A stretch of DNA of 64,000 bases from Methanoregula sp. GTDB taxonomy: Archaea > Halobacteriota > Methanomicrobia > Methanomicrobiales > Methanospirillaceae. How positions within the stretch are numbered: position 1 is the first letter of the stretch; each line of letters opens with the position of its first letter. Under the pieces are notes generated by a model. The model was not told where the DNA came from and did not search any database. It saw only the letters and a program-made list of their open reading frames with translations. Positions 43,082 through 44,462 of this stretch are shown one piece after another. The stretch spans positions 69,779 through 133,778 of the forward strand of contig NZ_JAQTQD010000005.1 in the NCBI RefSeq assembly GCF_028712425.1. The letters run 5' to 3'. The position numbers and the translations under genes were made by a program.

Positions 43082-43939
43082 CTACCGGTCTTCCTTCAAC
43101 AGTGCCGGTGCGGACAGTGCATCAAGAAGTTGCTCCGGTGTTGAGACAAGTCCTGCCGACTGTTCCAGCATGAGGTTGACCTGTTCATCAATGCCTACCT
43201 GCCGGAAGTCTGTCCTGAGCGCAATGATCTTATTTCCCTTAGCGTAAGCATACCCCATCTCCCACGAAGTCCCGGAATCTGCATCTGCCCCGTCAATTAC
43301 AGCCACAACGATGTCAGATTTTTCAAGAGCTGCCAGGTTCAGCCGGAAGAGCCGGTCATGTTCATTTTTCCCACGGGCTGCAGTGTCGTCACCGGCATCC
43401 TGCGGGAGATGGACGGAGAAGAAGTTCTCCTGCAGGAGTCTCGCGATCCCAGCATTATACGAGCGTTCCGCTGCCGAGAAGAGAGGGGCAGCAAGGTAGA
43501 CCCGGTACCGCGAGAATGTGATGGTGTCTATGGCAGGGATCCCCGGGAACCGTGAAAGGAACACCCCGCGGCCTGGCCGTTTCGGGGGTTCATCGCCCCT
43601 GCTGCCGTAATACGTGGCGGTCACCCCGCAGGTTGGCGAGGAGTTGACACCGATGATGCAGAGTGGGGGGCCGTTTTCCCTGATGATCTCCTTCACCTCA
43701 GTTTCAAGCTGATCGAGCAGCTCGGAAAAGGCCGGGTTGTCCAGTCGTTCCAGGAAGGTGCCAGGTTGCCGGGCAGGCCCGAGGTACAGCGTCTCCGGGC
43801 AGGGCAGCGGGACCATCTGTATCCCGAATTTGTCGCATCGTTCTTTCGTGCGCTGGAACGCCTCGATATCCGATGGCTTCGTGATCCCATCGGCACGGAG
43901 GTCCGGGTTGAGGATACAGGGGCTGCAGAGCACGTACAT
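43082..43939 (-). CDS. DUF523/TudS-like domain fused to nucleoside 2-deoxyribosyltransferase domain
   Basis: 285 residues in two parts. Residues 1-135 carry the three-Cys pattern of the DUF523/TudS desulfidase family: SPC (Cys8) followed by an NPDLRADG turn, PCPE (Cys47) and SSPTCGV (Cys104), which in TudS hold a [4Fe-4S] cluster that abstracts sulfur from thiouracil. Residues 145-285 are a nucleoside 2-deoxyribosyltransferase-like domain: VYLAAPLFSAAE, DIVVAVIDG and GTSWEMGYAYA with the nucleophile Glu227. The fusion suggests desulfuration and base/sugar cleavage of thiolated nucleotides. It is divergent from tsr3 with only 31 bp between starts. Domain assignment is from motifs; function is inferred. 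Confidence 0.8.
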   Translation of the reverse strand: MYVLCSPCILNPDLRADGITKPSDIEAFQRTKERCDKFGIQMVPLPCPETLYLGPARQPGTFLERLDNPAFSELLDQLETEVKEIIRENGPPLCIIGVNSSPTCGVTATYYGSRGDEPPKRPGRGVFLSRFPGIPAIDTITFSRYRVYLAAPLFSAAERSYNAGIARLLQENFFSVHLPQDAGDDTAARGKNEHDRLFRLNLAALEKSDIVVAVIDGADADSGTSWEMGYAYAKGNKIIALRTDFRQVGIDEQVNLMLEQSAGLVSTPEQLLDALSAPALLKEDR

Positions 43940-43970
43940 TATTTAGAGTGTTGACACGCACAGATGATCA

Positions 43971-44462
43971 ATGATACCCCTGTATGCCTTCCGGGACAAC
44001 AGCTGCGATCCCCGGAAATGCACGGTCAAGAAACTGGAGCGGGCCGGGTTTCTTAAAATTTTTCAGAAACTTGGGCAGATTCCCCGCAACACACTAATCC
44101 TCGATCCCACGGCAGAACAGGCGCTCTCTCCTGCAGACCGGTTCGTAAAATCTCTTACAGTGCTTGACTGCTCCTGGGAGGTACTCGATACCGGTGCCAT
44201 CAGCTCGTGGAGGATACGGCGGGCCCTCCCCTTCCTCATGGCAGCAAACCCGGTCAACTTCGGCAAACCCTGCAAGCTCTCATCAGTAGAGGCGGTTGCA
44301 GCGGCACTCTATATCATGGGGGAGAAAGACCGGGCAAAGGAGCTGCTCTCGAAAGTGAACTGGGGCATCCGGTTCCTTGAGGTGAACAAGGAGCCGCTGG
44401 AACTCTATGCCTCGGCAAAGGACAGTACGGAAGTAGTGAAGTACCAGGCGCTGTTCATCTGA
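43971..44462 (+). CDS. tsr3: Tsr3, rRNA aminocarboxypropyltransferase
   Basis: 163 residues. Tsr3 transfers the 3-amino-3-carboxypropyl group of S-adenosylmethionine to a hypermodified pseudouridine in small-subunit rRNA. Family features are DNSCDPRKCTVKKLERAG, ILDPTAEQALSPAD, LDCSWEVLD and the C-terminal ANPVNFGKPCKLSSVEAVAAALYI. It lacks the C-terminal extension of eukaryotic Tsr3, as is normal in archaea. The ATG at 43971 lies 31 bp from the divergent fusion gene. Confidence 0.93.
   Translation: MIPLYAFRDNSCDPRKCTVKKLERAGFLKIFQKLGQIPRNTLILDPTAEQALSPADRFVKSLTVLDCSWEVLDTGAISSWRIRRALPFLMAANPVNFGKPCKLSSVEAVAAALYIMGEKDRAKELLSKVNWGIRFLEVNKEPLELYASAKDSTEVVKYQALFI

Follow-up and report, generated by a model that had tools for sequence, protein, structure and literature searches.

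In Methanoregula sp., a single gene encodes a TudS-like desulfidase domain followed by a nucleoside 2-deoxyribosyltransferase (NDT)-like domain, an architecture that is real and conserved, that combines two known enzyme families, and that apparently has not been described before. The gene occupies positions 43082–43939 (stop codon included) on the minus strand of the window, the 64,000-nucleotide stretch of DNA that was analysed, and reads as one frame of 285 aa with no internal stop, beginning at an ATG that is preceded, one codon upstream, by an in-frame stop. It is present in single copy in its 2.67-Mb genome. The initial annotation proposed this pairing and knew of no precedent for it; no paper describing a desulfidase-deoxyribosyltransferase pairing was found in the open-licence literature searched, a description elsewhere being possible. 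Among TudS-family sequences, 58.9% are single-domain proteins and 40.1% carry a DUF1722 domain (PMC11417400), and these figures leave about 1% for the remaining architectures.

A scan of a genome collection yielded 61 complete fusions that could be read, all of them from Methanomicrobiales wherever the title of the record gives that order or one of its genera, with Methanoregula, Methanolinea, Methanoculleus, Methanogenium, Methanospirillum, Methanocalculus, and Methanocorpusculaceae represented. The joining of two separate genes by a frameshift, which the annotation had named as fatal to its claim, was rejected as the origin of the fusion, as was misassembly: there is one frame, and the 61 full-length homologues, which share the architecture, include the closed chromosome CP121470 and isolates. 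A chance motif was likewise rejected as the explanation of the domain matches on the grounds of profile, fold, and conservation. Retention of the architecture and its key residues in 61 full-length homologues places it far from chance. One locus, in Methanogenium cariaci (L063:4998-5968), has the fusion split over two overlapping frames, reflecting either a frameshift or a sequencing error.

The fusion is characteristic of its order. Of 393 genomes sampled from the phylum, 83 belong to the window's order. The N-terminal domain was located in a long frame (247–526 aa) in 80 of these 83, and 65 genomes from other families have it in short frames (134–215 aa; counts taken from the table by hand). 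Among the three exceptions within the order, G062 and G277 keep a PF05014 gene, with a frame of 155 aa in G277. Outside the order, both domains occur in this sample as separate, unlinked genes; the fusion was not found in any of the 65 other genomes with the N-terminal domain, and standalone NDT and desulfidase genes were not neighbours in the flanking DNA examined. Plasmid and viral matches contained single domains and no fusion. The independence of the two genes in related families would suit an arrangement in which the fusion merely co-expresses two enzymes that have no coupled function, as would the lineage of a Methanomicrobiales MAG (L080:4959-5408) in which the NDT domain stands alone. 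We consider this very unlikely, however, since 80 of the 83 genomes sampled from the order have kept the fusion and both active sites are intact in the 61 fusions that were read completely. In the MAG the desulfidase domain is absent from the genome, and the lone NDT gene lies near tsr3 with another gene between them. Its NDT groups within the fusions, though on a very long branch, and the N-terminal domain was therefore likely lost in this lineage.

The N-terminal domain (residues 1–140; 43520–43939, minus strand) is related to TudS at the level of fold more clearly than at the level of sequence. The Pfam model PF04463 (2-thiouracil desulfurase) matches residues 3–128 with an E-value of 2.6e-4, but its score of 21.5 bits is below the gathering threshold of 34.7. 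A stronger match, at residues 3–131 (E 1.1e-16), was obtained with NCBIfam NF045597, "CD3072 family TudS-related putative desulfidase," where the score of 60.9 bits does not reach the equivalog cut-off of 130 bits. All 32 fusion orthologues tested matched NF045597, and 23 of these matched PF04463 at E ≤0.01. In profile comparisons the domain was similarly closer to standalone CD3072-type proteins (E 6.5e-20) than to PF04463 proteins (E 8.2e-7). Judged by its sequence, the domain is thus a relative of the CD3072 TudS-related group and not an equivalog. When the N-domain profile was searched against PDB sequences, TudS was not recovered; it was found by the fold search alone. In the AlphaFold model (pLDDT 95.6 for this domain; 88.1 for the whole chain, with pTM 0.86), the best five PDB matches by Foldseek were all TudS (probability 1.00, TM 0.59–0.61, E 2.6e-3 to 5.6e-3), and the next match had a TM of only 0.31. 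Residues ~1–140 are accordingly modelled as a TudS-type fold, and the outcome that would have contradicted the annotation, a structure outside that fold, was not observed. Its label of TudS/DUF523 holds for the fold and the residues, but the nearest group is CD3072 TudS-related, and the domain remains under the Pfam threshold for DUF523.

The residues used by TudS are largely retained. TudS_A uses Cys10, Cys43, and Cys104 together with Glu45, Ser101, and Ser103, and Arg17 docks the substrate phosphate (PMC10611767). The three-cysteine pattern recognized in the initial annotation aligns with these ligands, and Cys8, Cys47, and Cys104, like Glu227 of the second domain, are found at the positions it gave. 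Cys8 (43916–43918), the predicted [4Fe-4S] ligand corresponding to TudS Cys10, is present in 61/61 fusions, in 30/30 standalone CD3072-type proteins, and in 29/29 PF04463 proteins. Also invariant among the 61 fusions are Arg15 (43895–43897), aligned with Arg17; Cys47 and Glu49 of the Cys47-Pro-Glu49 motif (43793–43801; TudS Cys43 and Glu45); and Ser101 and Cys104 of the Ser101-Pro-Thr-Cys104 motif (43628–43639; TudS Ser101, Ser103, and Cys104), all on the minus strand. The position of TudS Ser103 is Thr in the window protein, T, A, or C among the fusions, and T or S in the phylum's PF04463 proteins. A further cysteine, Cys35 (codon 43835–43837, minus strand), is invariant in 61/61 fusions, while in 59 relatives hydrophobic residues are commonest at this position; only in the fusions is it invariant, and neither the standalone CD3072-type nor the PF04463 relatives have it as a rule. 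Cys35 sits towards the end of the helix that precedes strand 2 and by topology should lie away from the cluster. Among the PF04463 proteins of the phylum (L113–L142), 19 of 29, mostly of 320–410 aa and thus RudS-like in length, have Ile or Ser where the third TudS cysteine aligns; they may either take their third ligand from elsewhere or have a different cluster.

The residues preceding the third cysteine are V98, D/N99, and S100 in the fusions, as opposed to K, S/N/G, and G/K in PF04463 proteins. This difference, and the greater proximity of the domain to CD3072 than to DUF523, could indicate that the pair acts on some other thiolated compound, such as a thiopurine nucleoside or a small metabolite: the pocket of the CD3072 type is unlike that of TudS, and the archaeal NDT, with its preference for purines, is unlike pyrimidine NDTs. 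AvNRT, an archaeal relative of the second domain, prefers purine ribonucleosides (PMC7308715). Such a substrate seems unlikely when Arg15, Glu49, Ser101, and the three cysteines are as in TudS. We also know of no source of thiopurines in these archaea.

The assignment of the C-terminal domain (residues ~144–265; 43145–43510, minus strand) is more straightforward. PF05014 matches residues 147–250 with an E-value of 9.6e-25 and 87.4 bits, well above the gathering threshold of 28.8, and PDB entries 7m5h, 7o62, and 8pqp were recovered by both sequence and fold. Fold matches of the full model were Desulfotalea 7o62, Enterococcus 7m5h, Chroococcidiopsis CtNDT, and LlNDT, followed by DNPH1. The deoxyribosyltransferase domain with Glu227 that the annotation described is therefore borne out. 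Glu227 (43259–43261, minus strand), the predicted nucleophile aligned with CtNDT Glu88, is invariant in 61/61 fusions, as are Tyr148, Asp221, and both Asn255 and Met257 of the NLM motif (residues 255–257; 43169–43177, minus strand), a motif that binds the 5′-OH in NDTs. The CtNDT counterparts of these five residues are Y7, D82, E88, N118, and M120 (PMC10913048). Other parts of the active site diverge. At the position of CtNDT Asp62 the 61 fusions have His (34), Asn (19), Leu (5), or Cys (3), and never Asp; Asp111, the proposed proton donor of CtNDT, has no clear counterpart in their shorter loop. Loss of Asp62 was considered as a hallmark of the fusion and dropped: Methanosarcinaceae NDTs have Asp in 16 of 17 cases, but in the wider set of standalone relatives the position is also often replaced, frequently by Cys or Asn. 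In CtNDT, Asp62 is close to the 2′-OH, and the D62N variant keeps about half of its efficiency with more futile nucleoside hydrolysis (PMC10913048). By analogy, we would speculate that the fused domain favours hydrolysis and can accept ribose.

The replacement of this Asp by varying residues in all fusions bears on whether the NDT-like domain might instead serve the desulfidase mainly by recognising its substrate and mediating oligomerisation, with glycosidic cleavage being weak or not physiological. There is precedent in RudS, where DUF1722 targets TudS to tRNA (PMC11417400), and NDTs are oligomers in which the NLM motif comes from the neighbouring subunit (PMC7308715). However, conservation of Glu227, Tyr148, Asp221, and NLM in 61/61 fusions exceeds what binding alone needs, and the D62N variant of CtNDT is still active at about half efficiency (PMC10913048), so that we regard a purely accessory role as rather unlikely.

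Genomic context provides some background on the possible substrate. The divergent neighbour is a tsr3-like gene of an rRNA-modification family (43971–44462, plus strand; PF04034, E 3.4e-44), adjacent to the fusion in 55 of 57 testable loci. The start codons of the two genes are 31 bp apart (gap 43940–43970), meaning that their promoters must overlap, and the gap is also short at many orthologous loci. The neighbour reported in the initial annotation is thus present and conserved, but the linkage is positional and not functional evidence; a divergent gene is by itself no pointer to RNA modification. A ThiI match was found in the genome of the window (E 1.3e-60), and 4-thiouridine is therefore probably made. 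Uracil phosphoribosyltransferase (UPRTase, Upp) was not detected in this genome, where free uracil would consequently not be reused by Upp, and among 80 genomes of the order just 19 have it above the family cut-off. A link to Upp-based uracil salvage is unsupported, Upp being missing in most of the order.

The reading that we favour, and to which we give an even chance, is a bifunctional thio-nucleoside/nucleotide enzyme of Methanomicrobiales that combines desulfuration with cleavage or transfer at the N-glycosidic bond in one pathway; the analysis establishes the predicted folds, the order-wide fusion, and the invariant residues, and from these we infer the cluster, both reactions, the substrate, and the coupling of the two domains. 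In the N-terminal domain, Cys8, Cys47, and Cys104 would ligate a [4Fe-4S] cluster, leaving one iron open to bind the sulfur of a thiolated base, which would then be removed with the help of Glu49 and Ser101. The substrate would most likely be of the 4-thiouracil type, originating from turnover of ThiI-modified tRNA, and Arg15 would be placed to hold a 5′-phosphate. The C-terminal domain would open the N-glycosidic bond via a covalent (deoxy)ribosyl-Glu227 intermediate, from which the sugar could be passed to water or to another base. In favour of such an enzyme, the counterparts of the TudS ligands and catalytic residues and the NDT active-site residues are invariant in 61/61 fusions; retention of both active sites over 61 genomes and several families is expected if both are used. 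Conserved fusions usually join steps of one pathway. The Methanoregula genome encodes ThiI, and no second PF04463 or PF05014 gene was found in it. Against it, no tested activity was found for any CD3072-type domain in the literature searched, TudS Ser103 is not kept, CtNDT Asp62 is replaced and Asp111 lacks a clear counterpart, the window genome has no detectable UPRTase, and the MAG mentioned above keeps an NDT without the desulfidase domain. AvNRT also counts against it, as this enzyme acts on purine ribonucleosides and does not hydrolyse pyrimidine nucleosides (PMC7308715). It is nonetheless plausible that desulfuration and glycosidic chemistry are coupled on thiouridine nucleotides, given the retained catalytic and phosphate-binding residues of TudS and the presence of ThiI in the genome.

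The recycling role of TudS has been worked out in bacteria. An order-wide pairing suggests a dedicated enzyme for the clean-up or recycling of sulfur-modified RNA building blocks, and the near-universal joining to an enzyme of nucleoside-sugar chemistry argues strongly, if circumstantially, that CD3072-type desulfidases act on nucleosides or nucleotides. The stronger proposition, that the fusion represents a new enzyme class in which one chain performs Fe-S-dependent sulfur removal and sugar cutting or exchange for housekeeping or salvage of thiolated bases throughout the order, is possible, and we would place it somewhat below an even chance. If the protein is bifunctional, desulfuration at an Fe-S centre and glycosidic chemistry would be directly linked within one chain. 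It is in any case a compact, well-conserved protein for testing what CD3072-type relatives do.

Several known systems resemble parts of the fusion. TudS itself (DUF523, PF04463; PDB 6z92–6z96, 6zw9) has the same fold, the three Cys ligands, and counterparts in Glu45, Ser101, and Arg17, but it is a single domain of ~150 residues, whereas the fusion is below the Pfam cut-off, lacks Ser103, and has the extra invariant Cys35. The CD3072 family (NF045597) is the closest sequence family of the N-terminal domain, matched by 32/32 tested fusions, although at ~60 of the 130 bits of the equivalog cut-off, and its standalone members end after the domain. RudS (TudS-DUF1722) likewise joins an N-terminal TudS-type domain to an accessory domain; that of the fusion is instead NDT-like, with no DUF1722 match in the Pfam scan. 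NDTs (Desulfotalea 7o62, CtNDT 8pqp, LlNDT) share with the fusion their fold, the nucleophile Glu, the Tyr, the Asp, and the NLM motif, while the fusion differs in its desulfidase-like domain, in N/H/L/C at CtNDT Asp62, and in a shorter region around the leaving-group Asp111. Finally, AvNRT, the N-ribosyltransferase of Archaeoglobus veneficus, is an archaeal PF05014 enzyme that has a TD[Y/F]R motif and NLM, as does the fusion, but it is standalone, has Phe7 where the fusion has Tyr148, and is specific for purine ribonucleosides (PMC7308715).
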